DNA of 64,000 bases, from assembly GCF_018129005.1 (NCBI RefSeq), contig NZ_JAAEDL010000021.1, forward strand, positions 1-64,000, read 5' to 3'. The notes beneath the pieces are model-generated. The model ran no database searches, was not told where the DNA came from, and worked only from the letters and a program-made list of their open reading frames with translations. Shown here one piece after another: positions 35,757 through 53,000 of the stretch. The first letter of the stretch is position 1. Each line of letters begins with the position of its first letter. The translations under genes and the position numbers were made by a program. Origin of the DNA: Neoroseomonas eburnea. GTDB taxonomy: Bacteria > Pseudomonadota > Alphaproteobacteria > Acetobacterales > Acetobacteraceae.

Positions 35757-37741
35757 GCATGCCGTCGCTGTTGCAGCAGCCGGGGATGATCGGTCCCCTG
35801 CGCATGAAGAACCGCCTCGTCATGGCGCCGATGGGGACGAATTTCAGCACCAGCGACGGGCTCTCGACTGAACGCGACCGCGCCTATTACGAGGAACGCG
35901 CCAAGGGCGGCGTCGCCGCCATAGTCACCGAGGCGATGGCGGTCAGCGCCGGCGGCCGCGCCCACACCAACTCCCTCTGGCTCTACCATGACCGCTTCAT
36001 CCCCGGCCTCGCGCGGCTGGTGGAAGCGATCAAGCGCCATGACTGCCTGACCATCGGCCAGCTCAACCACCGCGGCGGGCTGCTGCGGCGCATGGTACTG
36101 AACACCGAGCCGGTCGGCCCCTCCCCCTGGCACAACCCGAATACCGGCGATGCGGTGCGGCCGCTGGACAAGGCCGAGATCGTCGGGATCCAGAAGGATT
36201 TCGTCGCTGCCGCGCGGCGCCTGTGGCAGGCGGGCTATGACGCGGTCGAACTGCACGCCGCCAATGGCTACCTCTTCCAGCAATTCCTGACGTCGCGCAT
36301 CAACAGGCGCGGTGACGAATACGGCGGCAGCCTGGAGAACCGCGCGCGGCTGCTGCTGGAAACCGTGCACCGCCTGCGCGACGCGCTGCCCGACTTCCCG
36401 CTCTGGGTGCGCATCTCCTGCACCGAATATTGCGAGGACGGCTATCCGATCGAGGAGATGGTCGAACTCGCCCGCATGCTGGAAGCGGCGGGGGTGACGG
36501 CGCTCGACCTGTCTGGCGGCACGAATGAAAGCCCGGCGCTGTCGCGCTTCTGCATCCAGCCGCCCTCGATGCCGCGCCGCACCCTCGAACCTCATGCGCG
36601 CCCGATCACCGAGGCGGTGGGCATCCCCACCATCATCGCCGGCCGTATCGTGACGCCCGAGGACGCCGAGGCCGTGCTGGCCAGCGGTGCCGCCGACTAC
36701 GTCTCGCTCGGCCGCGCCCTGACGGCGGATGCGCATTGGCCGCGCAAGGCCTTCGGGGAATCGGCGACGCCGATCCGCCTCTGCATCTCCTGCAATGTCT
36801 GCTTCGAACGGCTGACGCTCGAGCGCGACGTCGCCTGCGTGACCAACCCGATGCTGGGGACGGAACTGGAAGCCCCGGAATTCGCCGAGCCGCCTCTCGC
36901 ACCCGCGGCGCGCCGGCAGCGCATCCTGGTCCTCGGCGCCGGCGTCGGCGGCATGGAGGTCGCGCGCCTCGCCGCCGCCCGCAGCCATGAGGTCGAGGTC
37001 TGGGAGAAAGCCGCGCGCCCGGGCGGGCAGATCCATCTCGCCGTCGCAGCGCCGGACAAGGAGGAGGTGCGCCCGCTCTGGACCTGGCGCTGGGACCAGG
37101 CGATCGCCGCGGGCGTGCGCGTCCGCTGCGGCGTCGATGCGACGGCGGCCATGATCCACGCCTTCGCGCCGGACCATGTCGTGATCGCGACCGGCGCCCG
37201 GCCACGCCCCTACACCCTGCCGGGAGCGGCGCCGCTCCAGGCATGGGACGTCATCGCCGACCCGTCGCTGGTGCCCGAAGGCGCCGGCGTCGCGGTGATC
37301 GGCGGCGGCATCGTCGGGCTGGAGGTCGCCGAGATGCTGACCCTGCGCGGCTGCCGCATCGCGGTGCTGGAAGCGCTGACCGCCATCGCCCCCGCCATGG
37401 CGCGCAACAACCGCACCGACATGATGATCCGCCTGCGCGCGGCGGACGTCGCCTTCCACATCGGGGCGCGGGCGGATCGCCTCGAAGGCGGCACGCTGCA
37501 CTTCACCGAAGGCGGCACATCCCACCGCATCGACGGCATCACGCATGTGATCGCCGCGGTCGGCGCCCTGCCGAACCGCGAACCGCTCCCGGCGGTCGAG
37601 GCCACCGGGCTGCCCCATACGCTGGTCGGCGATGCCAACCAGCCCGGCGACTACCTTTCCGTGCTGCGCGACGCCTGGATGGTCGGGCTCGCGCTCGGCC
37701 TGCGCCCGGACGCCGCGGCGCCCCAGGAGAACGCGGCGTGA
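35753..37741 (+). CDS. FMN/Fe-S/FAD enoate reductase (2,4-dienoyl-CoA reductase type)
   Basis: A 662-residue three-cofactor reductase. Residues 1-340 are an Old-Yellow-Enzyme TIM barrel binding FMN (GPLRMKNRLVMAPMGTN, ELHAANGYLFQQFLTSRIN, NRRGDEYGGSLENRARLLLE). A Cys cluster at C344, C347, C350 and C362 would bind [4Fe-4S]. Then come an FAD motif (VLGAGVGGMEVARLAA, near 385) and an NAD(P)H motif (VAVIGGGIVGLEVAEML, near 515). Such enzymes reduce enoates or dienoyl-CoAs. It is coupled by ATGA to the dehydrogenase and by GTGA to the hydrolase, so its substrate is an intermediate of this operon rather than a fatty acid. Confidence 0.92.
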   Translation: MSMPSLLQQPGMIGPLRMKNRLVMAPMGTNFSTSDGLSTERDRAYYEERAKGGVAAIVTEAMAVSAGGRAHTNSLWLYHDRFIPGLARLVEAIKRHDCLTIGQLNHRGGLLRRMVLNTEPVGPSPWHNPNTGDAVRPLDKAEIVGIQKDFVAAARRLWQAGYDAVELHAANGYLFQQFLTSRINRRGDEYGGSLENRARLLLETVHRLRDALPDFPLWVRISCTEYCEDGYPIEEMVELARMLEAAGVTALDLSGGTNESPALSRFCIQPPSMPRRTLEPHARPITEAVGIPTIIAGRIVTPEDAEAVLASGAADYVSLGRALTADAHWPRKAFGESATPIRLCISCNVCFERLTLERDVACVTNPMLGTELEAPEFAEPPLAPAARRQRILVLGAGVGGMEVARLAAARSHEVEVWEKAARPGGQIHLAVAAPDKEEVRPLWTWRWDQAIAAGVRVRCGVDATAAMIHAFAPDHVVIATGARPRPYTLPGAAPLQAWDVIADPSLVPEGAGVAVIGGGIVGLEVAEMLTLRGCRIAVLEALTAIAPAMARNNRTDMMIRLRAADVAFHIGARADRLEGGTLHFTEGGTSHRIDGITHVIAAVGALPNREPLPAVEATGLPHTLVGDANQPGDYLSVLRDAWMVGLALGLRPDAAAPQENAA

Positions 37742-38532
37742 CCGAGCCCATCTATCGCATCTACGCCCTGCGCTACGCCACGCGCGACGCACGGCGCCAC
37801 GAGCACTTCATCGGCGGCGATCCGCATGATGCGCCGATGCCCATGGACTACTTCGTCTGGGTCGCGGTGAATGACGACCGCGCCATCGTCATCGACACCG
37901 GCTTCACCGCCGAGGTCGCCGCCCGGCGCAAGCGCAACCACCTGCGCTGTCCGGTCGAGAGCCTGCCCCTGCTCGGCGTCGATCCGGACACGGTGGAGGA
38001 CGTCATCATCTCCCACCTGCACTACGACCATGTCGGCAGCTTCCACAAATTCGCGAAGGCGCTCTTCCACCTCCAGGAAGCCGAGATGCACTACGCCTGC
38101 GGCCACTACATGAAGCACCACAAGCTGCGCCATTCCTTCGAGGTCGAGGACGTGGTCGGCATCGTGCGCATGACCTATGCCGACCGCACCGTCTTCCACC
38201 TGGGCGATGGAGAGGTCGCGCCGGGCATCACCGTCCATGCCGTGGGCGGCCATTCCATGGGCCTGCAATGCGTGCGGGTGAACAGCGCGCGCGGCCAAGT
38301 CGTGCTCGCCTCCGACGTCACGCATTTCTACGAGAACATGGACAGCGGCCGCCCCTTCACCACGGCCTTCCATGTCGGCGCGATGCTCGACGGCTTCGAC
38401 ACGCTGCGCGCCCTCGCCCCCAGCCCGCAGCACATCGTCCCCGGCCACGACCCCGAGGTGATGCGCCGCTACCCGGCCGTCCCCGGCCTCAAAGGCATCG
38501 CCGTCGAATTGCACCGCGATCCATCGGCCTGA
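37738..38532 (+). CDS. Metallo-beta-lactamase-fold hydrolase (AHL-lactonase-like)
   Basis: A 264-residue MBL-fold hydrolase. The binuclear zinc motif is SHLHYDHVGS, with further ligands His in VGGHSMGLQ, Asp in ASDVTHFYEN and His in VPGHDPEV. This is the N-acyl homoserine lactonase/AttM subfamily layout, but in this catabolic operon a lactone produced by an upstream step is a more likely substrate than a quorum signal. The start is GTG 37738, overlapping the previous stop as GTGA; no ATG gives a sensible N-terminus. Confidence 0.88.
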   Translation: MTEPIYRIYALRYATRDARRHEHFIGGDPHDAPMPMDYFVWVAVNDDRAIVIDTGFTAEVAARRKRNHLRCPVESLPLLGVDPDTVEDVIISHLHYDHVGSFHKFAKALFHLQEAEMHYACGHYMKHHKLRHSFEVEDVVGIVRMTYADRTVFHLGDGEVAPGITVHAVGGHSMGLQCVRVNSARGQVVLASDVTHFYENMDSGRPFTTAFHVGAMLDGFDTLRALAPSPQHIVPGHDPEVMRRYPAVPGLKGIAVELHRDPSA

Positions 38533-38724: not shown

Positions 38725-39714
38725 ATGACGAACGTGACCCGCCGCCTCCTGCTCGGCGCCGCGCTGGCCGCCCCGGGCATCGCCCGCGCCGAGGATTTCC
38801 CCACCCGCTCGCTGCGCCTTGTCGTCCCCTTCCCGCCCGGCGGGGCGGCCGACATCACCGCGCGCCTGGTCGCCGAGCGCATGACGCCGCTGCTCCGCGG
38901 GCAGCCGGTCGTGATCGACAACCGCCCCGGCGCAGGCGGCAACATCGCCGGCGAGGTCGTGGCGCGCAGCACGCCGGACGGCTACACGCTCTTCCTCGGC
39001 GGCGCGACGATCCTCTGCGCGAACAAGTACCTCTACCGCAACGGCATGCCCTTCGACGGGCTGACGGATTTCGCGCACATCTCCCGCGTCTCGGTCGGCA
39101 CGACGCTGATGGTCGCGCGGGCCGACAAGCCCTGGCGGAACTTCCAGGACTTCGTCGCCGATGCGAAGCGACGGCCGGGGCAGATCACCGCCGGTTCCTC
39201 GGGCCTCGGCACGATCAGCCATCTCAGCCTGTCGAAGCTGATGCGCTCCGCGGATATCGACATCACCCACGTGCCCTATCGCGGCCTCTCCCCGAGCCTC
39301 AACGACCTGCTCGGCGGACAGGTGGACATCCTGTTCGACGGCATCCCGGCCCTCATCCCCCATGTGCGGGAGGGACGGCTGCGCGCGCTCGCCGTCGGCA
39401 GCCAGCAGCGGGTCACCTATGTCCCGGGGCTTGAGCAGACGCCGGGCATGGCGGAACTGCTGCCGGGCTCCGGCATGGACATGGAATTCTGGTACTGCAT
39501 TTCCGGTGCAGCGGGCACGCCGGCGCCGGTCATGCTGGCGCTGCATCGCGCGACGGTCGGCGCCGTGCGTCGGCCCGACTACCGCGAGAAGCTGATGCCG
39601 CTCGGCTTCACGCCGGTCTGGGATGAGAGCCCCGACACCCTCGCCGCCTTCATCCGCAGCCAGGCTCCGGTGTGGAGGGACCTGGTCGCGCTCTCGGGTG
39701 CGCGGCTCGATTGA
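38725..39714 (+). CDS. Tripartite tricarboxylate transporter receptor (Bug family)
   Basis: A 329-residue periplasmic solute receptor. A Tat-like signal (RRLLLGAALAAPGIARAED) is followed by the Bug hallmarks RLVVPFPPGGAADITARLV, VIDNRPGAGGNIAGEVVA and PDGYTLFLGG. It would capture a carboxylate or aromatic acid for uptake; no TctA/TctB membrane partners are in the window. AGGGAG nine bases before ATG 38725 fixes the start (an earlier in-frame ATG at 38689 lies just past the hairpin). Likely the uptake arm of the LysR-controlled operon. Confidence 0.92.
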   Translation: MTNVTRRLLLGAALAAPGIARAEDFPTRSLRLVVPFPPGGAADITARLVAERMTPLLRGQPVVIDNRPGAGGNIAGEVVARSTPDGYTLFLGGATILCANKYLYRNGMPFDGLTDFAHISRVSVGTTLMVARADKPWRNFQDFVADAKRRPGQITAGSSGLGTISHLSLSKLMRSADIDITHVPYRGLSPSLNDLLGGQVDILFDGIPALIPHVREGRLRALAVGSQQRVTYVPGLEQTPGMAELLPGSGMDMEFWYCISGAAGTPAPVMLALHRATVGAVRRPDYREKLMPLGFTPVWDESPDTLAAFIRSQAPVWRDLVALSGARLD

Positions 39715-40099
39715 GGCGAGCCAGACGCTCGCACTGTCGTTGCCCTGGGGGCAGCCCCTGCGGGGCTGGGCTGGCTGTGGTTGCGGGGCCGACAAGCAAC
39801 GGCCCGCTGCCTCCGATGGGCAGCCGCGGGCATGCCCGCGCCATGCCGCGCCGCGATTGCTGACAACAGGGCGGCTCCCCGGGGGCTGGAGCGTTGCGTA
39901 GGTGGCCGCTGCGGCCGGCTCGGCGCGCCATCGAAGGTGGGCCGGCAGGGTGATGCCTCGTGGATCACGCTTCGCCCTGCGCCGGAATTCCCCTCTCAAG
40001 CTCGCTCATATTTATTGCCGCACCTCGATGCGATCTCGTATCGTCACGCATGAAGGTCTTGTAACCCACGGTCGGGTGGGAACGCCGTGTGGGGACGCC
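39715..40099. other. Spacer between the Bug receptor and the dioxygenase operon
   Basis: About 385 bp. A small hairpin (CAGCCCC/GGGGCTG, 39752-39768) may end the upstream operon. The stretch 40005-40075 is more AT-rich and is the likely promoter region of the next operon. No gene seen. Confidence 0.5.
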
Positions 40100-41953
40100 A
40101 TGGCAGCATCGCTGACGGATCGTCTTCTGGCTTGGCTTGCTTCGGCGACAAGTCGCTCGCGGCCCTGGTACCATTGGCCGTTCCTTGTCGCAGTCCCGAT
40201 CATCGTCGGTCACCGCGTCACCATGCGGCGCGAGAATCTGACGGACATGGAAACGGAGCCGCCGCGCGTTTCCCCGCCGGCGGGGTTCGACGTGCGTGGC
40301 ATGCGGACGGCGGATGGCTCGTTCAATGACCTCGCACAGCCCTGGATGGGCATGGCCGGCGCGCGCTTCGGGCGCAACATGCCGATCGCCGATGTCTTCG
40401 GCGAGCGTGCACCGGAGCTCTTCGAACCCAGCCCGCGTCTGATCAGCAATGAGCTGCTGGCGCGGCGGGAATTCGTGCCCGTGCCGCACCTGAACCTCCT
40501 GGCTGCGGCCTGGATCCAGTTCATGGTGCATGACTGGTTGAGCCACGGCTCCAACGACAAGGAAGCCACCCCGCACGACGTGCCGCTGCCGCCGGGCGAT
40601 ACCTGGCCGGAAGGTCGGATGGCCGTGCTGCCGACCGACCCCGATCCGCCGAATGCCACCGATGCCGGGCGACCGACGGCCTACACCAATGTCGAGACGA
40701 GCTGGTGGGACGCGTCGCAGATCTACGGATCCTCCCAGGCGCGACAGGACCTGGTGCGGCGCGACCCCGCGACGGGCCTGGCGCGCGCCGACGGCAAGCT
40801 CCATCTCGAGCCGAACGGGCTGCTGCCGATCGAGGATCGAACGCTCCGCGGCAAGGCGAGCCCCCATCTCGAACTGGCCGGCGTGAACGGCAACTGGTGG
40901 ATCGGCCTGTCGGTCCTGCACACGCTCTTTGCGCGGGAGCACAACGCGATCGTGGATCGCCTGCGCATCGACCATCCGGACAAGGACGGCGAGTGGCTGT
41001 TCCAGAAGGCACGGCTGGCGAATGCGGCCCTCCTGGCGAAGATCCACACCGTCGAGTGGACGCCGGCGCTGATGAACTCGCCGGAAGGCCGCATGGCGAT
41101 GCGCGGCAATTTCTGGGGCCTGCTCGGCGAGGCGTACAATCGCGCCCATGGGCGTGTCGGACAGGGCGAGATCCTGTCGGGCATACCCGGATCGCCGGCC
41201 GACCATCACACCGCGCCCTACGCGATGACGGAGGAGTTCGCGGCGGTCTACCGGCTGCACTCGCTGATGCCCGACGAATTCTCCTTCCGCCGCAGCTTCG
41301 ACGATTCCGAGGCCTTCCGCCGCGATCTGCCCAAGGTCGCCGGCGGCCAGGCGCGGGAGATCCACGAGCAACTGCCGTTCGACGACGTCGTCTACTCGCT
41401 AGCGACCAGCCATCCGGGGGCGCTGGTGCTGCACAACTTCCCGAACGGGCTGCGCCGCCTGGACCGGCTCGACGAGCATGGCGTGCATCTCGACATCGCG
41501 ACCGTGGATATCCTGCGCGACCGGGAGCGCGGCGTGCCGCGATATTGCGCCTTCCGCCGCCGTATCCAGGCCCATGTGCCGCGGGACTTCGACGAGCTGA
41601 CCGACAACCCCGACTGGCAGCGCGAGCTCCGGGCGATCTATGGCAGCGTGGAGAAGGTGGACCTGCAGGTCGGCATGATGGCCGAGAGCCAGAACAGCCG
41701 CTATGGCACGCCGCCCGGCTTCGGCTTCTCCGATACCGCCTTCCGCATCTTCATCCTGATGGCGTCGCGCCGGCTCAAGAGCGACCGCTTCTTCACCGAC
41801 GACTTCCGGCCGGAGGTCTACACGCCGGCCGGCTTCGACTGGGTGCGCGACAACTCCCTGCGCACCGTGTTCGAGCGCCATTGCCCGGCGCTGCGCACGC
41901 ATTTCGCCGATGCGCGCAACGTGTTCTTCCCCTGGGCGCGCGGCGGGGGGTGA
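40100..41953 (+). CDS. Animal-type haem peroxidase, cyclooxygenase/alpha-dioxygenase-like
   Basis: A 617-residue member of the peroxidase-cyclooxygenase superfamily. The distal His144 is in AWIQFMVHDWLSHG. The proximal site reads YRLHSLMPDEF, giving His387 as haem ligand and Tyr384 three residues before it, the same Tyr-x-x-His spacing as the radical-forming Tyr and proximal His of prostaglandin H synthase and plant alpha-dioxygenase. TLFAREHNAIVDRLR and NNWW-like WWIGLSVLH blocks also match that group. This suggests a fatty-acid oxygenase rather than a halide peroxidase. One N-terminal hydrophobic stretch (WPFLVAVPIIVGH) may tether it to membrane. Start at ATG 40100; earlier open sequence is not coding-like. 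It heads a five-gene unit with 3-bp to overlapping spacings. Confidence 0.88.
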   Translation: MAASLTDRLLAWLASATSRSRPWYHWPFLVAVPIIVGHRVTMRRENLTDMETEPPRVSPPAGFDVRGMRTADGSFNDLAQPWMGMAGARFGRNMPIADVFGERAPELFEPSPRLISNELLARREFVPVPHLNLLAAAWIQFMVHDWLSHGSNDKEATPHDVPLPPGDTWPEGRMAVLPTDPDPPNATDAGRPTAYTNVETSWWDASQIYGSSQARQDLVRRDPATGLARADGKLHLEPNGLLPIEDRTLRGKASPHLELAGVNGNWWIGLSVLHTLFAREHNAIVDRLRIDHPDKDGEWLFQKARLANAALLAKIHTVEWTPALMNSPEGRMAMRGNFWGLLGEAYNRAHGRVGQGEILSGIPGSPADHHTAPYAMTEEFAAVYRLHSLMPDEFSFRRSFDDSEAFRRDLPKVAGGQAREIHEQLPFDDVVYSLATSHPGALVLHNFPNGLRRLDRLDEHGVHLDIATVDILRDRERGVPRYCAFRRRIQAHVPRDFDELTDNPDWQRELRAIYGSVEKVDLQVGMMAESQNSRYGTPPGFGFSDTAFRIFILMASRRLKSDRFFTDDFRPEVYTPAGFDWVRDNSLRTVFERHCPALRTHFADARNVFFPWARGGG

Positions 41954-41956
41954 GCC

Positions 41957-42862
41957 ATGGGGCGCGCGATCCGGCTGCCGTGGCTCGCAGACCTCCTGGT
42001 CTGCGACGACCCTGCGGGCATTGCGGCGCTCGCGGCCGAGCCGCGGCTCGATCGCCGCTTCAGCGCGTCCGGCCCGCTGCTCAACCGGCTGCTGGCCGGC
42101 CGCATCCGCCGCGTTCTGGTTCTGGACGGCAGGCCGCTTCCGCCCGTCGCACCGCGCGACGAGGACGGTGGCGCCCCGGCGCGGCAACTGCTGGAGGCAA
42201 CGGTCACGGCGCGCGCGGCCGAGGCACCCTGCGATCCGGGGACGCTCGACCGTCTCGCGGAAGGCGTGCTGCACGGGGCGGATCGCGCGGCGTTCGGTCC
42301 GGTGGCGCAGACCGCGATCGGGCGCCTGTTCCGCCCTGACTTCGCCGGCACCGCGGACACCTGGCAGGCTGCACTGCTCCTCGATGCCGCGGTGCGCAGC
42401 TTCAATCCGCTCCGCCGCCTGCGCTGGAGGCTCGACGGCAGCATCGAGGCGGCGCGCGCAAGCCTCGCCGAGGCGGTGGCGCGGGACCCGGCGGCGCTGC
42501 ATGCGGTCGGCATCGCCGTGCACCATCTGGTGGAGTCATTCGTGCGCATGGCCGCGCTGGCGGCGGGACCGGCTGCACTGCGGAGCGTGGCGGGACCGGA
42601 GGCCGCATCGCGCTGCCTCGTCGCGCCCGCGCGCGTGCTGCGCCGGGCCGAGGCCATGGGCGAGACCGCCCAGGGTGCGTTCCGCCCCGGCACCCTCGTG
42701 CTGCTCGACCTCGAGGCAGCGCGCACCCGCAGCTCGCGGCGGGACATCGCCTTCCTGACCGGCGCCTGGAGCGCCTGCCCGGCCCATGCCTGGGTGCCGG
42801 CCCTGCTGGCGGCGGTGTGGGAACGCGCGAGCGCGATGACCTTGACCGAGGCGCGGTCATGA
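41957..42862 (+). CDS. Short P450-like protein of unknown function
   Basis: A 301-residue protein I cannot place firmly. Its last third follows the order of P450 landmarks: CLVAPARVLRRAEAMGE (as in the Pro-x-x-x-x-Arg meander before the sheet), AFRPGTLVLLDLEAARTR (as the PxGTxVxLxxxAANRD strand) and FLTGAWSACPAHAWV, where Cys274 could be the thiolate ligand, although the Phe-to-Cys spacing is one longer than in ordinary P450s. The N-terminal half of a normal 400-500-residue P450 is missing or unrecognisable. It starts 3 bp after the dioxygenase gene and overlaps the reductase gene by ATGA, so it must work with them. Alternatively it is an unrelated helical protein. Confidence 0.6.
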   Translation: MGRAIRLPWLADLLVCDDPAGIAALAAEPRLDRRFSASGPLLNRLLAGRIRRVLVLDGRPLPPVAPRDEDGGAPARQLLEATVTARAAEAPCDPGTLDRLAEGVLHGADRAAFGPVAQTAIGRLFRPDFAGTADTWQAALLLDAAVRSFNPLRRLRWRLDGSIEAARASLAEAVARDPAALHAVGIAVHHLVESFVRMAALAAGPAALRSVAGPEAASRCLVAPARVLRRAEAMGETAQGAFRPGTLVLLDLEAARTRSSRRDIAFLTGAWSACPAHAWVPALLAAVWERASAMTLTEARS

Positions 42863-44241
42863 GCGCCGCCTCCCTCGCCGCCAAGGGGCCGACGGCCGAC
42901 GAGGCCGATCCCATCTTCGCGCCGCTGCGCTTCCGCAACCTGACGGTGAAGAACCGCGTCTTCCGTTCCAACATCTCCGGCCGCTTCGACAACGAGGACG
43001 GATCGCTGACCCAGACACGCATCAACTGGGAGAGCCGCTTCGCCCGGGGCGGCGTCGGCGCGATCATTTCCTCCTATGTCCCGGTGGCGATGGAGGGGCG
43101 CATCATCGCGGGCTACGCCACCATCCACAGGGACGAGTTCATCCCGCTCTGGCAGAAGCTCGGGGAGGCGGTGCATGCCTTCGACTGCCACTTCATCCTC
43201 CAGCTCAGCCATTCCGGCCGGCAGATGGACCTGCCCGGCATCCACAACCAGGACCGCCCGGCGCCGAGCGCGACCGGCCGCAAGGAATCCCTTCACGGCT
43301 TCCTCTGCCGCGCGATGGGCACCGGGGAGATAGAACGCCTGGTCGCCGCCTTTGCCCGCGCTGCCTGGCGGGCGAGGGAGGCCGGGCTCGACGGGGTGGA
43401 GCTGCACGCGGCGAACGGCTACCTGTTCACGCAGTTCCTCAGCTCCGGGATCAACGACCGGACGGACCGCTACGGCGGCTCGCTGACCAACCGTGCGCGG
43501 TTCCTGCTCGAGGTCATCGAGGCGATCCGCGCCAGAGTCGGCCGTGGCTTCCATCTGCAGGTCAAGCTCAGCGCGGTGGACCGCAACGACATCCTGCCCT
43601 GGGAAGGCAAGGGCAACACGCTGCAGGACACGATCGCCGTCGCGCGCTGGTGCGAGGCGGTCGGCGCGGATGCGATCCACGTCTCGACCGGCTCGCTCTT
43701 TCCGCACCCGCTGAACCCGCCTGGCGAGCTGCCTCTCGAGGTGCTGGCGGTGACCTACGACGCGATGATCTCTTCGGGCATCGACGGGTTCCGCAACTTC
43801 CTCTTCTTTCGCTACCCGGCATTGCGGCCGCTGTTCCGCTGGCTCTGGTTCCGCCACAAGCGTGGCCGGCCGAACGAGGCGATCAGCATCGACGAGGCGC
43901 GGGCGATCCGCGCCGCCGTCTCCATCCCGGTGATCAGCACGGGCGGCTACCAGAGCGCATCCGTCGTGCGTGCCGGGCTTGCCTCCGGGGCGTTCGACGC
44001 GGTGGCGATCGCGCGTTCCCTCGTTGCCAATCCCGACCTGCCGCAGCACTGGCGGGCGGGGCGCGAGCGGCCCGAGCGGCCCTGCACCTATTGCAACAAG
44101 TGCCTGATGAACGCGCCGAAGAACCCCATGGGCTGCTACGAGGAATCGCGCTTCCCGAGCCGCGAGGCAATGCTCGAGGAGATCGTCTCGGTCTATCGCC
44201 CGCGGCCGGCGCTGCGCGTGCCCCGGCCGTCGGAGCCCTAG
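42859..44241 (+). CDS. Old-Yellow-Enzyme-family NADH:flavin oxidoreductase
   Basis: A 460-residue FMN TIM-barrel reductase without the C-terminal FAD/NAD domains. Landmarks: APLRFRNLTVKNRVFRSNI, HFILQLSHSGRQMDLP, VELHAANGYLFTQFLSSGIN, DRTDRYGGSLTNRARFLLEV, and VISTGGYQSASVVRAGLASG. A C-terminal Cys set (CTYCNKCLMNAPKNPMGC) could bind an Fe-S cluster. An insertion at about 300-345 (FRNFLFFRYPALRPLFRWL) is hydrophobic and unusual, perhaps a membrane-association helix for a lipid substrate. ATG 42859 overlaps the P450-like stop (ATGA). In this company a role like that of plant 12-oxophytodienoate reductase is conceivable, but is inference. Confidence 0.9.
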   Translation: MSAASLAAKGPTADEADPIFAPLRFRNLTVKNRVFRSNISGRFDNEDGSLTQTRINWESRFARGGVGAIISSYVPVAMEGRIIAGYATIHRDEFIPLWQKLGEAVHAFDCHFILQLSHSGRQMDLPGIHNQDRPAPSATGRKESLHGFLCRAMGTGEIERLVAAFARAAWRAREAGLDGVELHAANGYLFTQFLSSGINDRTDRYGGSLTNRARFLLEVIEAIRARVGRGFHLQVKLSAVDRNDILPWEGKGNTLQDTIAVARWCEAVGADAIHVSTGSLFPHPLNPPGELPLEVLAVTYDAMISSGIDGFRNFLFFRYPALRPLFRWLWFRHKRGRPNEAISIDEARAIRAAVSIPVISTGGYQSASVVRAGLASGAFDAVAIARSLVANPDLPQHWRAGRERPERPCTYCNKCLMNAPKNPMGCYEESRFPSREAMLEEIVSVYRPRPALRVPRPSEP

Positions 44242-44243
44242 CC

Positions 44244-45857
44244 ATGCCGCGCGCCGCCCCCGTCACCGCGGTGGAGATGGCGCTGGCGAGGCGCCGCCGC
44301 CTGACCCTGCCGTTGGGCCTGCTGCTGCTGCTCGCGCTCATGCTCGGGCTGGCGGTGATCGCGATCGCGGCCTGGCATGGACCGCGCTTCCTGCGTGGCG
44401 ACCGCACGCCGACTTTCGCCAGCGAACTGGACCACTTCAAGTACGGCTCGATCGGCGCCGAGCGCGACAGCGGGATCCCCTACCTCGCCTGGCAGGCCCT
44501 GCCGCGCCTCTTTCCCGAGGTGTTCGGCGACGCGGCGCAGCAGGCGGCGGCGCGCGCAGGCGGGGAAGGCCCCTACGCAGTCTTTGGCTTCCTCTACGAG
44601 CCGGTCTCGGCCGGCAGCGCAGCGCCGCGCGACCTGCCCATCGGCATCGCCCGGCGGGAGGTGCGTGGGGTGGAGATGGTGTGGTTCAACTGCGCCGTCT
44701 GCCACACAGGCACGGTGCGGGAGAGGGAGGACGGGCCACGCCGCATCGTCGTGGGCATGACCTCGAACAACCTCGACTTCCACCGCTTCGTCGCCTTCGT
44801 CGTGTCCATCGCCGCAGACCCGCGCCTCGCCCCGGATCCGCTGCTCGAAGCGATCGAGGCGGGCGGGACGCGGCTCGGCCTGGTGGACCGGCTGCTCTGG
44901 CGCTTCGTCGTCGCGCCGAACCTGCGTGAGGGCCTGCTGGAACGCCGCGCGCAACTGGCGCCGCTGCTGGCCATGCAGCCGGCCTGGGGGCCTGGGCGGG
45001 TCGACACCTTCAACCCCTACAAGGTGGTGCAGCTTGGCCAGCGTGCCGGCAGCGGCGCGCCGGAACAGTGGATCGGCGCCGCCGATTTCCCGACGGTCTT
45101 CCACCAGCGCGAGCGGCAGGGCATGCAGCTGCACTGGGACGGCAACAACCCGTCGCTCGCCGAGCGGAACCTCTCCGCGGCCGTCGGCGCCGGCCTACGG
45201 CTCGACCGCGCGACCGAAGCCGACCATGCCTCCATCCGGCGCGTCGCGACCTGGCTGCTCGACCTGCCGGCGCCGCCGAGCCCCATGCGCGCGACGGCCG
45301 ATGCGGGGGCGGTGACGGAGGGGAGCAGGATCTACCGGCAGCATTGCGCCGCCTGCCACGGCCATCATGACGGCGCCCGCCACGTGTTCCGCGGCGACCG
45401 CCTGGGCCGCGTCACGCCCATCGCCGAAATCGCGACGGATCGCGCGCGGCTCGATTCCTACACGCCGGACTTCATGTCCATGCAGCACCGCGTCCTCGGC
45501 CTCACCGCCTTCGTCAAGACGGACGGCTACGCCAACCACCCGCTCGACGGGCTATGGCTGCGCGGCCCCTATCTGCACAACGGCTCGGTACCGACGCTCG
45601 AGGCCCTGCTGCTGCCCGCCGCGGAGCGACCCCGCTTCTTCCTGCGCGGCGACGACACGCTGGACCGTACGCGCGGCGGCTTCCGCTCCGAGACCTTCGA
45701 AACCGGGGAGGCTTGCCTGGAGGCGGCCCGGCGCACGCGCGGGCGCTTCTGCTTCGACACGCGCCAGCCCGGCAACGGAAATGGCGGCCACGACTACGGG
45801 ACGCGCCTCGGCCAGGCCGAACGCGACGCGTTGCTGGCGTATCTCAGGACGTTCTGA
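44244..45857 (+). CDS. Membrane-anchored di-haem cytochrome c (RoxA/peroxidase-like)
   Basis: A 537-residue periplasmic protein with one N-terminal anchor (about residues 20-45, LPLGLLLLLALMLGLAVIAI) and two haem c sites, C150-x-x-C153-H154 (NCAVCHTG) and C368-x-x-C371-H372 (HCAACHGH). Blocks such as FKYGSIGAERDSGIPYLAWQ, GPGRVDTFNPYK, LHWDGNNPSLAERNLSA and GPYLHNGSVPTLEALLLP resemble the MauG/RoxA group of di-haem enzymes, some of which are dioxygenases of unsaturated hydrocarbons. It may therefore be an oxygenase or an electron partner for the haem enzymes of the operon. It starts 2 bp after the reductase stop. Confidence 0.85.
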   Translation: MPRAAPVTAVEMALARRRRLTLPLGLLLLLALMLGLAVIAIAAWHGPRFLRGDRTPTFASELDHFKYGSIGAERDSGIPYLAWQALPRLFPEVFGDAAQQAAARAGGEGPYAVFGFLYEPVSAGSAAPRDLPIGIARREVRGVEMVWFNCAVCHTGTVREREDGPRRIVVGMTSNNLDFHRFVAFVVSIAADPRLAPDPLLEAIEAGGTRLGLVDRLLWRFVVAPNLREGLLERRAQLAPLLAMQPAWGPGRVDTFNPYKVVQLGQRAGSGAPEQWIGAADFPTVFHQRERQGMQLHWDGNNPSLAERNLSAAVGAGLRLDRATEADHASIRRVATWLLDLPAPPSPMRATADAGAVTEGSRIYRQHCAACHGHHDGARHVFRGDRLGRVTPIAEIATDRARLDSYTPDFMSMQHRVLGLTAFVKTDGYANHPLDGLWLRGPYLHNGSVPTLEALLLPAAERPRFFLRGDDTLDRTRGGFRSETFETGEACLEAARRTRGRFCFDTRQPGNGNGGHDYGTRLGQAERDALLAYLRTF

Positions 45858-45884
45858 CGGGATGTGGGCAAGGAGGAGACGCAG

Positions 45885-46319
45885 GTGGACCAGACGCTCA
45901 GCCTGGGTTGGATGCAGAGCGAGGCCGCGGCGCGACGCGCCGCCTTCCGTCGCGTCCTCGGTGTCAATCTGGTGCTGCAGGGGGTGATCGGCGTCGCGGC
46001 GGTCCTGGCGCCGGGCTGGCTCTCGGCGCTCCTCGGGCTCGGCGGGACGCTGCAGCCGGGCTGGGTGAGCGCCTGGGGCGGGATGCTCCTGCTGGTGGCC
46101 GCGCTCTACCTGCCGGGCTACCAGGAGCCGGCACGGGCGCGGTGGCCCAATCTGGTTGGCATCCTGGGCCGGTTCGGCTTCGCGCTGCTCTACGTGGTCC
46201 TGGCGCTGGGCGGGGCCCCTGGCTTCCTGTGGCTCGCGGCCTTCGACCTCGGCTTCGGCGTGTCGTTGGCGATGCTTTACCTCTCGCTCGGCCGGGCCGA
46301 GCTGATGAGTCGGCCATAG
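45885..46319 (+). CDS. Small integral membrane protein
   Basis: A 144-residue protein with four hydrophobic helices (VNLVLQGVIGVAAVLAPGW, WGGMLLLVAALYLPGY, LGRFGFALLYVVLALGG and LWLAAFDLGFGVSLAMLYL). I do not recognise the family. AGGAGG at 45871-45876 is eight bases before GTG 45885 and favours that start over the in-frame GTG at 45864. It closes the dioxygenase operon, 27 bp after the di-haem cytochrome, so it could be an anchor or a lipid-handling partner. Confidence 0.75.
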   Translation: MDQTLSLGWMQSEAAARRAAFRRVLGVNLVLQGVIGVAAVLAPGWLSALLGLGGTLQPGWVSAWGGMLLLVAALYLPGYQEPARARWPNLVGILGRFGFALLYVVLALGGAPGFLWLAAFDLGFGVSLAMLYLSLGRAELMSRP

Positions 46320-47735: not shown

Positions 47736-49724
47736 CTACCGCGTAAGGTCGGAGCCGAATTCCGACACCTCGGTCGCCCCGCTGCTGCATGCCGTTCCTG
47801 TGCCAGGCATCGTGCCGCCCCTGGCAAGCCTGGCGCGGTTCAGCGCGCGTCGCCGCCCAGGCCCGGTCAGGAAGAGTGCCAATGCAGCCCCGTCCTCTTC
47901 GACAAGAAAACCGCGCTGCAGCAGGGTCGCCATCGCATTCCGCACCTGGGCTGCGCCGAACTCTCCGGCAAGCCGGGCGCGAATCTCGTGCTCCGGGGTT
48001 ATTCGCCAGCAGAGCCTGGCGACCGCCGCTTCGCAACCGACGAGCGTCGTCGTCTGTCGCGGCCACCCCCAGCGCTCGTCGTGCACCACCAACACCCCAT
48101 TCTCGTCGCAGGCATGGAGCGCACTCTCCGCATGATGGAGGTTCCAGCTCGTCTGCTCCGTCTTCATCGGCGCCACGACTGACTCTATCCGGTCCAGCGC
48201 GTCGGAATGCATGTCGAAATGATAGGCGAGCCTGCCGACGCCTTCGTCACCGAACGGGTAGATGTAGCGGTACCCGGCACAGGGCCGGAGCGTGACGCCG
48301 AATGCGGCCGGCCGCTCGAAGTACGGACTGAACCGATCGGCCAGGGCGCGCCCCGTGTCGTTCGGCGGCTGCAGATGGCGCAGAAGCGGGATCAGGCGTG
48401 CTGTCCGCGCATAGGCGGCTTCGCTCTCGCCGGGAAAGCCGTAGAGCAGGTTCCAGGCGACCGAGATGCCGAACTCCGCAGCCATCTTCAGGGTCTGGAC
48501 GTTCTGAAGCATGGTGCAGCCCTTGCGCATCAGCGTCAGGAGCTCGGTGTCCAGCGCCTCGATGCCGGGCTGGATGCGCCGCACCCCCGCCTGCGCAAGA
48601 AGCTCCATCTGGTCCGGGCGCAGATTCGCCTTCATCTGCCAGTAGATGCTCGCATCCGGGCCTTGGCTTGCGAGCAGCGGCAGAAACTCCTCGAAATAGC
48701 GAAGATCGAGGATCGCGTCCGTCGTGACGACGTCACCGCCGTGGCGCGCGACGAGGTGTGCCAGCTCATCGTAGGCGCGGCGCTGCGACTTGCTGCGATA
48801 GGCCATGGAGCGCCCGTTCAGCCCGCAGAAGGTGCAGTGATGCTTGGCGCCCCACCAGCAGCCGCGCGCCGCTTCAAAGATGACGGCCGGCACGGCGTGC
48901 GGTTCCGCTGCAGTGGCGGCCCGCTGGGCATAGAAGTCATCGAGATCGGGATAAGGCAGCGTATCGAGATCGCTGATCCGATCCGCGTCGATCCTGGGCA
49001 GGCTCGTCTGCCCCTCCGCCGAGCGGATGACCATGCCGGGCAGCCCTGCGAGATCTTCCCGCGCCAGGTGCCGGCACACCAGTTCGGGGAAGGTACGGTC
49101 GCCCTCGCCGAGGCAGACGACATCGATGAAGGGATAGCGGCGATGCAGCTCGACGCCCATCTCGCCCTGGCAGTTCGGCCCGCCCAGGACGATCAGCACA
49201 TGCGGAGCGCGCTCCTTCACCCGGCGGGCGAAAGCCAGCGTCGCCATGTTCTGCTGGAACGCGGTGGACAGGCCAAGGACGGCATAGCGATCCCAGTCGA
49301 TCGATGCGGCGCAATGCTCGATGAACGCCTCGGCGCCTTCGCGGGCAGCCAGGATCAGCAGCAGCCTGGCCACGTATTCGCGCTCCGGGCAGACGGCCCG
49401 GAAGACATGCGTCAGAAAGCCGAGATCCGCCGCCTCATCTGCGGCGGATGGCATCCGCGCGGCCCGTGCGAATACCCATTCCCCGACCATGCTCGTGTGG
49501 TAGGCGGTATCGGTGAGACAGGAGAACGTCTCGCTTCCGACCGACGCGACGTAGTCGAGCGAAAAGTAGCGCACGTCACAGGGAATGCCCCTCGCCGCGA
49601 TGCCCGATTTCAGCAGCCCGAGTGCCAGGCTCGGGTAGCGCGCCGAGGCCAGTGGCAGCGAGGCCAGCAGGACACCGCCACGGCCCGCCGCGTGGGGCGT
49701 GTGGTCAGCCCCTGGCCTCGGCAT
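47736..49724 (-). CDS. B12-binding radical SAM RiPP maturase (C-methyltransferase type)
   Basis: A 662-residue enzyme. The N-terminal 230 residues look like a cobalamin-binding Rossmann domain (VLLASLPLASARYPSLALGL, VLIVLGGPNCQGEMGVEL, VVCLGEGDRTFPELV). The radical SAM cluster motif is C289-x7-C297-x2-C300 in RGCWWGAKHHCTFCGLNG; the x7 spacing and the CWWG/CGLNG flanks are the mark I know for the RiPP-maturation C-methyltransferase group. The C-terminal third has the GIEALDTELLTLMRKGCTML block. It would C-methylate or otherwise modify a ribosomal peptide; the leader-like peptide gene just upstream overlaps its start by 20 nt. Confidence 0.87.
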   Translation of the reverse strand: MPRPGADHTPHAAGRGGVLLASLPLASARYPSLALGLLKSGIAARGIPCDVRYFSLDYVASVGSETFSCLTDTAYHTSMVGEWVFARAARMPSAADEAADLGFLTHVFRAVCPEREYVARLLLILAAREGAEAFIEHCAASIDWDRYAVLGLSTAFQQNMATLAFARRVKERAPHVLIVLGGPNCQGEMGVELHRRYPFIDVVCLGEGDRTFPELVCRHLAREDLAGLPGMVIRSAEGQTSLPRIDADRISDLDTLPYPDLDDFYAQRAATAAEPHAVPAVIFEAARGCWWGAKHHCTFCGLNGRSMAYRSKSQRRAYDELAHLVARHGGDVVTTDAILDLRYFEEFLPLLASQGPDASIYWQMKANLRPDQMELLAQAGVRRIQPGIEALDTELLTLMRKGCTMLQNVQTLKMAAEFGISVAWNLLYGFPGESEAAYARTARLIPLLRHLQPPNDTGRALADRFSPYFERPAAFGVTLRPCAGYRYIYPFGDEGVGRLAYHFDMHSDALDRIESVVAPMKTEQTSWNLHHAESALHACDENGVLVVHDERWGWPRQTTTLVGCEAAVARLCWRITPEHEIRARLAGEFGAAQVRNAMATLLQRGFLVEEDGAALALFLTGPGRRRALNRARLARGGTMPGTGTACSSGATEVSEFGSDLTR

Positions 49725-49935
49725 CGAGCGTGGCTGCGGCAGCGCTCATCCGCGCTTCGAAGTTCGCCTCCGTCAGGCTGTCGAAGAAGATCACCCATTG
49801 CGGCTCGGGTCGCAGGCCCTGCCCTCTCAGCGCCGTCGCCGTATCATCGAGCAGGCTGCGCCGGAATGCCGGATCGGCCTTGGCCAGGGCGAAGAGGAGC
49901 TTGAAGGAGCCGAGCGTGATAGGTTCCAGAGGCAT
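49705..49935 (-). CDS. RiPP precursor-like peptide with NHLP/Nif11-like leader
   Basis: A 76-residue peptide beginning MPLEPITLGSFKLLFALA. The block KADPAFRRSLLDDTATALRG resembles the leader of NHLP (nitrile-hydratase-like) and Nif11-type precursors (helix, Asp-Pro-x-Phe, then Leu-rich helix). There is no Gly-Gly cleavage site and no Cys; the possible core or partner region is QWVIFFDSLTEANFEARMSA with its Phe-Phe and Arg-Met. It overlaps the radical SAM start, the usual coupling of a precursor with its maturase. ATG 49935 is used (GGAG nine bases upstream); an upstream open extension is not conserved-looking. It might instead be a leader-like accessory protein. Confidence 0.7.
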   Translation of the reverse strand: MPLEPITLGSFKLLFALAKADPAFRRSLLDDTATALRGQGLRPEPQWVIFFDSLTEANFEARMSAAAATLDAEARG

Positions 49936-50047
49936 GGATCCAATCTCCGTCGCGAAGGCGCGGTTGCGTCGCGATGGGTCCATCCGGCCACGACCATGGA
50001 CGTCGCCGGCCCACGTTTCGCGATCATCCGTTTCACAATCGCACCAG

Positions 50048-50067
50048 ATTATATGTTGGTCAACCAA
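50048..50067 (-). promoter_or_regulatory. TATAAT box with adjoining TTGGT-CA-ACCAA dyad
   Basis: On the minus strand a perfect TATAAT lies at 50053-50048, about 113 bp before the precursor ATG and just after the cyclase gene ends. Abutting it upstream is the dyad TTGGTCAACCAA-type (arms 50056-50060 and 50063-50067), similar in shape to GntR/FadR-family operators. A good -35 is not obvious, which fits activator or repressor control. Confidence 0.4.
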
Positions 50068-50087
50068 TGAGTCGCGCCCTTGCCGGG

Positions 50088-53000
50088 CTACCGCGGCGCG
50101 TCTCCGCAGTCGCCGTGCAGGATGTCCGTATCCACGCCGATGCGAAGGCCGAGACCGACAAGAGCCGCTTCCGCCCTCTCGGCCGCCGCAGCCATGCCGC
50201 AGCCCCGGTACTCTTCGGCCGCCATGGTCAGTGCTTCTGTCGCTTCGACGCCGCGGCCCTGGCGCGCCAGCAGCCGCCCCAATCCGAACTGGCTCTCGGC
50301 GAGTTCAGGCCGCATGCCGATCGTGCGGGCCAGGCCGAGGGCTTCGCGGAATGCGGCCTCGGCTCGCTGCAACGCCGCTGCATCGCCCTCCTGCGCGGAG
50401 CCGATCTCACCGATGAGTCGGGTCGCATGGGCAGCGAGCGGACGGTAGCCATAGCGGTGCGCCAACTCCGCCGCCGCCGCGGCGTGGCGCTCCGCCTCGC
50501 CATCGGCGCCGGCCACGTGGTGGGCGAGGGCGAGCGACGCGGTGCACCAGCCTTCCAGTGCCGCAAGCTTGTGCGAGCGGGCCTGGACGATCGCTTCCTC
50601 GAGCAGAGGAATGGCCGGATCGGGGCGTCCGGAAAGGGCGTAGGCGCGGCCGAGATAGCGCGCCGCATGCGGCATCAGAAGCACAATCTCATTGGCGCGC
50701 GCGATCCGGAGGGAGTCCTCGAGTAGCGGTATCGCCGCATCGATCGCCCCGCCCATGAGGTGCGCGAGGCCGAGCGCCGCCTGGGTATAGCTTAGATCGT
50801 AGGGGCGCTTCGTAGCTTCCGCGAGATCGAGCGCCTCGCCCGCTCGCGCCAGAGCCTGCTTCCAACGCCCGAGAAAGCTCTGAACATGGGAGAGCGAGAC
50901 CAGGCACATGACCGACGCCGTGCCGGTGGTCGCGGACTGGCCGCGGCGCTGGTCCTCGGTCGCCCGCTCGAGCGTGGTGGTGAGGATCTGCTCGGCTGCG
51001 GCGAAATCGCCTCGGCTCCAAAAGGCCTGGCCAAGCGCGAAGCCCGAGCTGATGAAGGAGGAGATGTCGCCCAGGCGCTCCGCGAGAGCCCTTCCCTGCC
51101 TGCCGGCCTCCACCGCCACATCGAGCCCGCCGAAGTTGGATTGGATCGTCGACCGGCTGATGACGATCTGCATGAGGCGCCGCTCGTCGCCGATCGCCCG
51201 GGCCAGCGTCTCCGCCTCGGCGAGGTGGCCAAGCACCTCCTCCAGGTCGGCGCTCGCCGCGAGAGCGACGCGCAGCCCCAGGCGGATGTCGATGCACAGC
51301 TCGGCGTTGCCGCGATCGGCAGGCAGGTGGACCGCTGCGTCAAGGGCGCGTCGGAAGAAGGTGGCGGCAGCGCGGTGCGCGGAATGCGCGTTGGCCTTCT
51401 GGCCCGCCTTGAATGCGTAGGCGGTGGCCTTGTCCCAGACCTCGCCGCGCAGCGCGTGATCGGCCAGCCGCTCCGTGAACTCGTCGATCCTCTCGGCGAA
51501 GCTCGCCTCGATGGCTGCGAGCGCCTGGCGGTGAAGAGCACGCCGATGGCGCTGGAGCATGCTGTCGTAGGCGACGGTGTGGGTCAGTGCATGCTTGAAG
51601 GTGTATTCCACGCCGGGCATGCCGCCGTGCTCGTAGAGGAACTCCTGCGCCTGCAGCTCCTGCAGGAGCCGCGCGAGCTGATCCGGCCCCATGCCGGCGA
51701 TCGCGCGGAGCAGGGCAACCGGCACGTCCTTGCCGATGATCGAGGCCACCTGGAGCAGGGTCCGCGCCTCGCTCGGCAGCCCGTCGATGCGCGCCGCGAT
51801 GACGCTCTGCACCGAATCCGGGATCTCCACGTCCTCGGCGCTGCGCGTCAGGCGAAAGCGCTGCGGTTCGCTGACCAGCACGCCGGTCTCGACCAGGGAG
51901 CGGGCGATCTCCTCGAGGAAGAGCGGCGTCCCGCCCGTCTGTTCGATCATGCGCTCGCGCAGGCTGCTCAGCTCCGGCGTGCCGCCGATCAGGTTCCGCA
52001 GCAGGCGATCGGAGGCGTCCCGGTCCAGCGGGCCGAGCTGCACCAGCGAAAAGTAGCTGAGCCGCGACCAGCGGTTCTCGAACTCGGGCCGATAGGTCGC
52101 GATGATCAGGACCCTCGCGCCGCCAAGACTGTCGATCACCGCATCGATCACCGACCGGCTTTCGGCATCCGCCCAGTGCATGTCCTCGATGAGCAGGATG
52201 ACGGGGCGGGAGGCGGCGGCGCGCAACACGAGGGCGCGCAGGGCATCGTGGGTGACGCGGCGCCGGTGCGCGGGGTCGAGGCCAGACCATGCGGCATCCG
52301 GGATGGGCAGCGCCAGGAGCGAACGCAGCGCCGCGTGTTCAAGGGAATCGGACCGACCGAGCGCCGCCAGCGCCTCGGCGAGCTTCGCATCGATGGTCAA
52401 CTGGGTATCGTCCACGCCGACGCCAAGCCAATCGGACAGCAGTTCGGCGATCAGCCTGTAGGGCGTGTGCCGGTCATGCGGCATGGCTGCCGCCGAGACC
52501 AGGGTCGCGGCCATGAAGCCGGTGTCGCGCAGGAACTCATGGGCCAGGCGGGACTTGCCCATGCCCGCCTCGCCCGAGATGGCGACGACCTGCCCACGGC
52601 CGGCCTCGAAGCGTCGCAGCGCATCCGTCAGGATCGCTGCCTCCGTGCCACGCCCGACGAAGGGCGTCAGCCGATGCGCGGACGACCGGACCTGCCAGCG
52701 TGTCTGGCCGGCCGTGCTCACCAGTTCGAACACCTCGACGGGCCGTGACGTTCCCTTCACCTCGACCGGCCCGCGCGACCGCAATTGCACGAACCCGCTG
52801 ACAAGACGCGCCGTGCGAGCCGTGAGACATGCCGTGCCCGGCTGCGCCAACTGCTCCATGCGGCTCGCGAGATGGGTGGTGGGCCCGACCGCCTCGTATT
52901 CGAGCGACAGATCATGGCCCCTGGCACGCACCACCACCTCACCGGAATTGAGTCCGACGCGCAGCTCGACGGAGGCCTCCCCGAGGCGCGAGGCCGCCGC

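Follow-up and report, generated by a model that had tools for sequence, protein, structure and literature searches.

A conserved alpha-dioxygenase operon of Neoroseomonas eburnea encoding a probable P450-derived haem-thiolate protein

A stretch of 64,000 nucleotides from Neoroseomonas eburnea (contig NZ_JAAEDL010000021.1, positions 1 to 64,000; hereafter the window) carries five intact, densely packed open reading frames (ORFs), A to E, on its forward strand between positions 40100 and 46319. The first is predicted to encode an alpha-dioxygenase (alpha-DOX), and the second, B, probably a shortened haem-thiolate protein derived from the cytochromes P450. Our preferred interpretation, which we hold tentatively, is that the five genes form one operon for enzymatic fatty-acid alpha-oxidation or oxylipin formation, in which B would process the 2-hydroperoxide. 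B itself may represent a new class of haem-thiolate enzyme derived from the P450s, lacking the ExxR motif and having a distal His, that would rearrange or reduce the 2-hydroperoxides of alpha-DOX. A and B would then be a bacterial dioxygenase-P450 oxylipin pair, once found fused, parallel to the fungal DOX-CYP enzymes, a proposal to which we give slightly less than an even chance. The features are as follows.

40100..41953, + strand: A, predicted alpha-dioxygenase, 617 aa (Pfam, similarity to PDB chains, active-site residues)
41957..42862, + strand: B, probable P450-derived haem-thiolate protein, 301 aa (invariant H182, R229 and C274; profile comparison)
42859..44241, + strand: C, predicted old yellow enzyme (OYE)-family flavin mononucleotide (FMN) enzyme, 460 aa (Pfam; H183/N186/Y188; iron-sulfur (Fe-S)-type motif of Cys 409/412/415/426)
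44244..45857, + strand: D, predicted di-haem protein, 537 aa (CxxCH at 150 and 368, PYLHNG at 442)
45864..46319, + strand, GTG start: E, small hydrophobic protein (judged by eye, about four membrane helices)
39712..40099, no strand assigned: likely promoter region (putative), 388 bases, counting the stop codon with which the preceding TctC-type gene ends

The near-zero spacing remarked on in the first-pass annotation corresponds to intergenic gaps of 3 bases (A/B), -4 (B/C), 2 (C/D) and 6 (D/E), the ATG of C overlapping the stop codon of B. For E, homologues favour an alternative GTG start at 45885. The profile search of all five proteins that the same annotation had proposed assigned A (An_peroxidase, 1.8e-103), C (Oxidored_FMN, 7e-64) and D (RoxA-like Cyt-c, 4e-14) to Pfam families and gave nothing for B or E.

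Compared with all solved chains, A has the alpha-DOX chains 4kvj, 4kvl and 4hhr as its top matches, at 1e-102 to 1e-99 (4kvj, E 2.4e-102), while other haem peroxidases are far weaker (lactoperoxidase 7.6e-27, COX-2 1.1e-9, myeloperoxidase likewise lower). A groups with alpha-DOX and not with the halide peroxidases, an identity that the first-pass annotation had named as refuting its reading and that we rejected on the difference between 4kvj and lactoperoxidase. The Tyr-x-x-His proximal pair that it had pointed out is Y384-R-L-H387. Aligned to the rice set (the numbering in the chain is offset by 3), A has H144, H316/R558, T321, Y384 and H387 at positions that we take to be the distal His157, the carboxylate ligands His311/Arg559, the positioning Thr316, the radical Tyr379 and the proximal His382 of the rice enzyme. 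By analogy, H144 would be the distal and H387 the proximal residue, Y384 the catalytic tyrosine, H316 and R558 the carboxylate ligands, and T321 the positioning residue. Conservation of these residues was counted over 81 rows, the window plus 80 loci (all loci in this account are numbered with the prefix L), which are the best 80 of 114 relatives of A from a two-peptide-pattern scan of a species-genome collection. H316, Y384, H387 and R558 are each kept in 80 of the 81 rows, the remaining row having a gap, while T321 is kept in 78 (2 Ser, 1 gap) and H144 in 75 (5 Arg, 1 gap). Chain 4kvl differs from 4kvj exactly at the Tyr aligned with Y384 and is presumably the Y379F mutant. We take 4kvj and 4kvl to be from rice and 4hhr to be from Arabidopsis; related codes are paired the opposite way in PMC8720084. 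The likeness of A to alpha-DOX was established on plant chains, with the cyanobacterial CalDOX and LepDOX compared by description. On this evidence we assign A as a true alpha-dioxygenase with an intact active site.

Genuine relatives of B are tied to alpha-DOX. They were found in 2 of 299 genomes of the window's order, where one further match proved to be a spurious ORF, and by profile search in 4 of 398 genomes of its phylum, where two more matches were chance. Matches in L004 and L030 and in L153 and L154 were dropped as chance, the latter two being a FeoB-like protein by eye. A cyanobacterial B-like domain, used as the query, was found in 1 of 386 genomes of its own phylum. All genuine B matches in these three samples lie directly downstream of, or are fused to, alpha-DOX. 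The fusion occurs in Iningainema tapete (L086:9914-12757) as a single ORF of 948 codons, alpha-DOX followed by the B-like domain and ending FGTGSPERACVF, and is absent from the 385 other genomes of that phylum sample. Of 1248 ORFs compared with the B profile, this domain (E 1.7e-9) ranks directly below the separate B proteins. Its C-terminal end, FTFGTGSPERACVFQDFF, resembles a P450 cysteine loop and has FGTGSPERAC there.

The first-pass annotation had called B a possible P450. Invariant residues, their spacing and a profile comparison with class-I P450s make it probably P450-derived, and in our judgement P450 ancestry is likely. Among 41 relatives, no variation is seen at H182, R229 or C274, and P224, F266, W271, P275 and A276 are each present in 40. 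The P450 Cys loop FxxGxxxCxG is matched only in part, at F266 (40/41) and C274 (41/41), with Gly269 in just 10/41 and with W-x-x-CPA replacing the usual ending. Among 26 P450s, 23 of which were measurable, the distance from the I-helix Thr to the ExxR Arg is 38, the class-I value, in 8; 7 of these 8 also have 10 residues to the next Arg and then 58-59 to the haem Cys. The corresponding distances in B are 37 (H182-R219), 10 (R219-R229) and 45 (R229-C274).

Profile comparison with hhalign gave B a score of 28.7 against 9 class-I P450s (P 0.0066) and of 32.8 against 47, with 0/300 column shuffles as high. With two B sequences added, the score against the 47 was 34.0 (P 0.001), and none of 1000 shuffles was as high, the best reaching 28.9. 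The 40 extra P450 stretches (38 usable proteins) were hand-picked from a listing and not selected by spacing. The full-length alignment of the B and P450 profiles places C274 on the haem Cys. As controls, a reversed profile scored 13.3 and other cassette proteins 15-18 once fusion rows were removed. A score of 27.6 between B and A was discounted, since the L086 fusion row stood in both alignments; removing the 15 long-ORF rows among the 86 lowered it to 18.1.

Several observations weigh against a P450 origin of B. The protein is just 301 residues long and has no Pfam, NCBIfam or credible PDB sequence match. None of 38 family members matched Pfam p450 at E up to 10; other Pfam matches, in 1-3 of the 38, and PDB matches to stretches of a CoA-transferase, PdxS and exonuclease 1 were rejected as chance. 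The ExxR motif is not found in B, the Glu occurring in 1/41 and the Arg in 26/41 relatives, and the I-helix motif A/G-G-x-D/E-T is absent from alignment A2 (38 rows), in which the invariant His182 lies in this region. The hhalign probability for B and P450 is just 21%. Against 25 or 26 mixed P450s the scores of 19.9 to 22.4 were not significant; in a comparison of 36 rows (33 other ORF clusters from the loci, P450 and two reversed controls), the mixed P450s came first at 22.4, the next row reaching 22.1. The class-I set was chosen after the spacing had been seen, so that its P-value is not that of a pre-planned test. The L086 domain alone scored 21-22.5 (P 0.027-0.037), and an alpha-DOX-linked Streptomyces P450 (L147) alone scored 17.2 against B. 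By its motifs B is not a canonical P450; more probably it is a haem-thiolate protein of reduced length that descends from one. As an enzyme of this kind, at about 300 aa, it would perhaps be the smallest known.

The assignment of C to the OYE type in the first-pass annotation agrees with its Oxidored_FMN match and with its His/Asn/Tyr set. H183, N186, Y188 and four Cys (C-x2-C-x2-C-x10-C) are present in 38/38 rows, window included, of an alignment that omits a 39th row, a 50-residue fragment from L078. Its best matches among solved proteins are NemA, dienoyl-CoA reductase and enzymes like them, and no 12-oxophytodienoate reductase (OPR) label appears among the 60 listed of the 138 matched. Pfam found no flavin adenine dinucleotide (FAD)/NAD(P)H module in C, while a second OYE in the window, at 35753, has one. 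Residues ~280-340 are left unaligned by the OYE models. C is predicted to be an OYE-family enzyme with an FMN barrel, a His/Asn/Tyr active site and an Fe-S-type motif. The fragment in L078 (11959-12111), 63% identical to C over its 50 residues, follows the alpha-DOX of a Myxococcus and is perhaps a remnant of C.

D has its two CxxCH motifs at 150 and 368, PYLHNG at 442 and, by eye, an N-terminal hydrophobic segment, because of which it is probably membrane-anchored and periplasmic. Its score of 154 bits narrowly exceeds the cut-off of 150 set for NF040606, a model of di-haem cytochrome c peroxidases. The RoxA-like di-haem character proposed in the first-pass annotation is upheld by the RoxA-like Cyt-c match, the CytoC_perox model and the paired CxxCH motifs, and we place D in the RoxA/Ods superfamily of di-haem proteins on these features. 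This superfamily is able to oxygenate fatty acids, since OdsA/OdsB of Pseudomonas aeruginosa (PA2077/PA2078, FadCcp) are described as fatty-acid oxygenases (PMC4496055). The OdsB/OdsA pair was recognised in L185 by the tested motifs and by the haem spacings that this paper gives. Two further sets of D-like genes were observed. Nine Halomonas-type loci (L058, L061-L067, L072) have a second D-like di-haem gene, 38-40% identical to D, which is divergent and just upstream of alpha-DOX. In a Pseudomonadaceae locus (L191:15753-18797) two D-like di-haem genes stand in tandem, one of them 43-45% identical to the window's D, with no alpha-DOX match within the 19 kb examined. E, which is small, hydrophobic and conserved (27 rows), matched no named family and is predicted to be a membrane protein.

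Gene content was scored for each of the 80 loci as same-strand genes within 9 kb downstream of A. The full set A-B-C-D-E is present in 24 and A-B-C-D in 9 (Halomonas type), the rest being AB (3), ABE (1), ABD (1), AD (1), AE (4) and A alone (37). The order A-B-C-D is kept on one strand in 33 of the 80 (33/33 of those with all four genes), with B starting at most 66 bases past the last codon of A. In 3 Halomonas-type loci the ORF after D was inspected, and each time it encodes an E-like membrane protein. In four loci that lack a downstream C (L079 and the Acidobacteria L081-L083), a relative of C (55-58%) lies immediately upstream or in divergent orientation, and in L074 a B relative sits between two alpha-DOX genes. 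The tree distances of any two of A, B, C and D are correlated (r 0.80-0.87, n=34), and in none of the six comparisons did any of 1000 permutations reach so high a value; shared ancestry alone can raise such a measure. Gene order and correlated trees both agree with the operon put forward in the first-pass annotation, and we regard the A-D genes as a unit conserved beyond chance. Carriers are mostly labelled alphaproteobacteria, Elioraea tepidiphila among those with the operon, together with Ectothiorhodospira and Halomonas and the metagenome bins L035 (Burkholderiales) and L057 (Anaerolineae).

Within the 299 genomes of the window's order, A had 16 matches at E 0.001 or better. The match is full-length in 2, the window's own genome and one genome of the same family (76%); weaker haem-peroxidase matches, partial and at 39% or less, were taken as other peroxidases. 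Since whole-length A is found in so few genomes of its own order, its distribution is patchy. Of 72,556 plasmid records, 20 had A at E 1e-40 and 1 had B.

The enzyme classes alone come from sequence, and we infer the order of the steps and the product. A tyrosyl radical at Y384 of A would abstract the alpha hydrogen of a free fatty acid, and O2 would add to give the 2(R)-hydroperoxide, which if left alone would lose CO2 to form the Cn-1 aldehyde. B would instead bind the 2-hydroperoxide, with H182 acting as acid-base and the C274-ligated haem splitting the O-O bond, and would release a defined 2-hydroxy, dihydroxy or 2-oxo compound. For such a reaction neither O2 activation nor a reductase would be needed, and the absence of the ExxR and I-helix motifs is in keeping with this. 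In a flavin/Fe-S step, C may add a hydride pair to the product of B or remove one from it. D, across the membrane, might remove left-over peroxide or oxygenate a second position, and E might serve as an anchor or an exporter.

Other findings count against this scheme. C has no obvious electron donor. D is just 26-27% identical to OdsA/OdsB and falls outside their group; in a midpoint-rooted tree of 62 rows, which included 6 of 30 single Pseudomonadaceae loci and left out RoxA and MauG, 51 D-side rows (0.97) stand opposite 11 rows with OdsA/OdsB (1.0). There is no separate B in 42 of the 80 loci (one of these, L086, has the fused B-like domain), and the four AE loci, from Methylobacterium and relatives, have A and E with no B, C or D, so B is not required everywhere.

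These loci also suit an unlikely but serious alternative, simple alpha-oxidation, in which spontaneous decarboxylation would give Cn-1 aldehydes for chain shortening or odd-chain lipids, B would be a haem-free accessory or substrate-delivery protein, and C, D and E would dispose of aldehyde, peroxide and electrons. Aldehydes are indeed reported from cyanobacterial alpha-DOXs (PMC8720084), and B matches no family, but the invariant Cys, Arg and His of B and its P450-like spacing and profile speak against a mere accessory. Distinctly improbable, in our estimate, is an operon for defence against lipid peroxides, which would remove H2O2 and fatty hydroperoxides with A and D working chiefly as peroxidases. 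The activation of alpha-DOX by H2O2 and the fit of D to NF040606 (154 against 150 bits) would both suit such a role, as would the relief of OdsA toxicity by OdsB in P. aeruginosa (PMC4496055). A nevertheless keeps H316/R558 and T321, which a plain peroxidase would not need, and its occurrence is patchy.

More improbable still is a jasmonate-like route, in which a mid-chain hydroperoxide would undergo P450 rearrangement and OPR-type reduction to give a signal. The first-pass annotation had drawn this parallel to plant and fungal oxylipin routes, and the gene order (haem dioxygenase, P450-like protein, OYE) and the OYE His/Asn/Tyr set of C do agree with it. The parallel is weakened by the C-2 chemistry, by the Fe-S motif of C and by the missing ExxR and I-helix motifs of B. 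The jasmonate-like reading is weak because A is of the alpha-DOX type, which oxygenates C-2, and because C, with its Fe-S motif and without an OPR label among the listed solved relatives, is not demonstrably OPR-like. That the five genes are unrelated chance neighbours is hardly credible: B and E are of no known function, as such an explanation would allow, but it would have to account for the conserved A-B-C-D order in 33 of 80 loci, the correlated trees and the alpha-DOX/B-like fusion.

Alpha-DOX genes also have other partners. A vanillyl-alcohol oxidase (VAO)/lactone-oxidase-type FAD protein adjoins alpha-DOX in L059, L101, L146 and L193, all four with B, and in L088, L075 and L076, the last as a 57-residue fragment at a contig end. 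A Streptomyces plasmid (L147) carries alpha-DOX with a hydrolase, a divergent true P450, a GlcD-like FAD oxidase and an annotated benzoylformate decarboxylase, a set that would suit a C-2 route. In Calothrix, a GMC oxidoreductase and a patatin-like phospholipase lie within 5 kb of alpha-DOX, with a transposase between. These alternative partners suit fatty-acid release and C-2 oxidation and prove neither. In 14 loci (L098, L100, L102-L112, L114) from Pseudomonas, Marinobacter, Atopomonas, Bermanella, Thalassolituus and relatives, alpha-DOX is fused to a different C-terminal domain of about 300 aa. This Pseudomonas-type domain gave no credible match for 4 sequences on Pfam and 1 on PDB. A catalase identity suggested by eye was unsupported by hhalign, a weak test in which some rows possibly had wrong frames.

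Elsewhere in the window, 5' of A, the second OYE with its FAD module and a metallo-beta-lactamase-fold gene (35753-38532), together with a TctC-type binding protein, apparently form a set separate from A-E. On the reverse strand, 47736-53516 is likely a cluster for a ribosomally synthesised and post-translationally modified peptide (RiPP), with a radical S-adenosylmethionine (SAM) C-methyltransferase at 582 bits, over the cut-off of TIGR03975. Two more proteins of this region scored under cut-off, a small one as a weak NHLP-type match and a large one as TOMM kinase/cyclase-like. Large cyclase-like regulatory proteins lie within ~10 kb of alpha-DOX here (50088-53516) and at L037:5713-9012, L038:5576-8785 and L193:2205-5357; those of the window, L037 and L038 are one sequence cluster and that of L193 is similar by eye, an association that may be due to chance.

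Alpha-DOX sequences are reported across bacteria, Proteobacteria included, and two cyanobacterial enzymes have been characterised (PMC8720084), so that alpha-DOX in bacteria was already known; what would be new is a dioxygenase-P450-type pair on the alpha-DOX branch. Among the matches listed in the open-licence literature (titles and the starts of abstracts), none described a proteobacterial alpha-DOX operon or B, and the operon has apparently not yet been described. The roles of oxylipins in prokaryotes are said to be largely unidentified (PMC5155153). The conserved operon gives alpha-DOX defined partners and lets its product be tested in named carrier strains, and it points to a bacterial route to oxidised fatty acids common to many proteobacteria. 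It could be a source of enzymes for making 2-hydroxy or 2-oxo fatty acids, and B may show how the P450 fold can shrink to 300 residues.

Among known systems, plant alpha-DOX (4kvj, 4hhr) is like A over its whole length and agrees with it in the catalytic Tyr, the haem His and the residues that bind the carboxylate. The plant and cyanobacterial enzymes (CalDOX, LepDOX) are described as lone enzymes whose product decays to aldehyde, whereas A stands in an operon with four conserved partners, and the alpha-DOX product is a 2-hydroperoxide, in contrast to the mid-chain hydroperoxide of the jasmonate and LDS routes (PMC8720084). The fungal linoleate DOX-CYP fusions (LDS, EAS, AOS) likewise combine a haem dioxygenase with a P450-type partner, an arrangement found fused here in one cyanobacterium, but they join a mid-chain dioxygenase to a full-length CYP, while the window has a C-2-type A and a separate B of 301 aa without ExxR. 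B also has an invariant His, placed by profile alignment, where fungal CYPs have Asn, Thr or a nonpolar residue (PMC13049297). OdsA/OdsB share with D two CxxCH motifs, PYLHNG(S)V and the RoxA-like superfamily, and differ from it in haem spacing (235/245 against 218), in their low identity to D and in lying on the opposite side of the midpoint-rooted tree. Fe-S OYEs of the 2,4-dienoyl-CoA reductase type (1ps9) have the OYE barrel and C-terminal Cys motif of C, which differs in lacking their C-terminal FAD/NADPH module and in its extra stretch at ~280-340.

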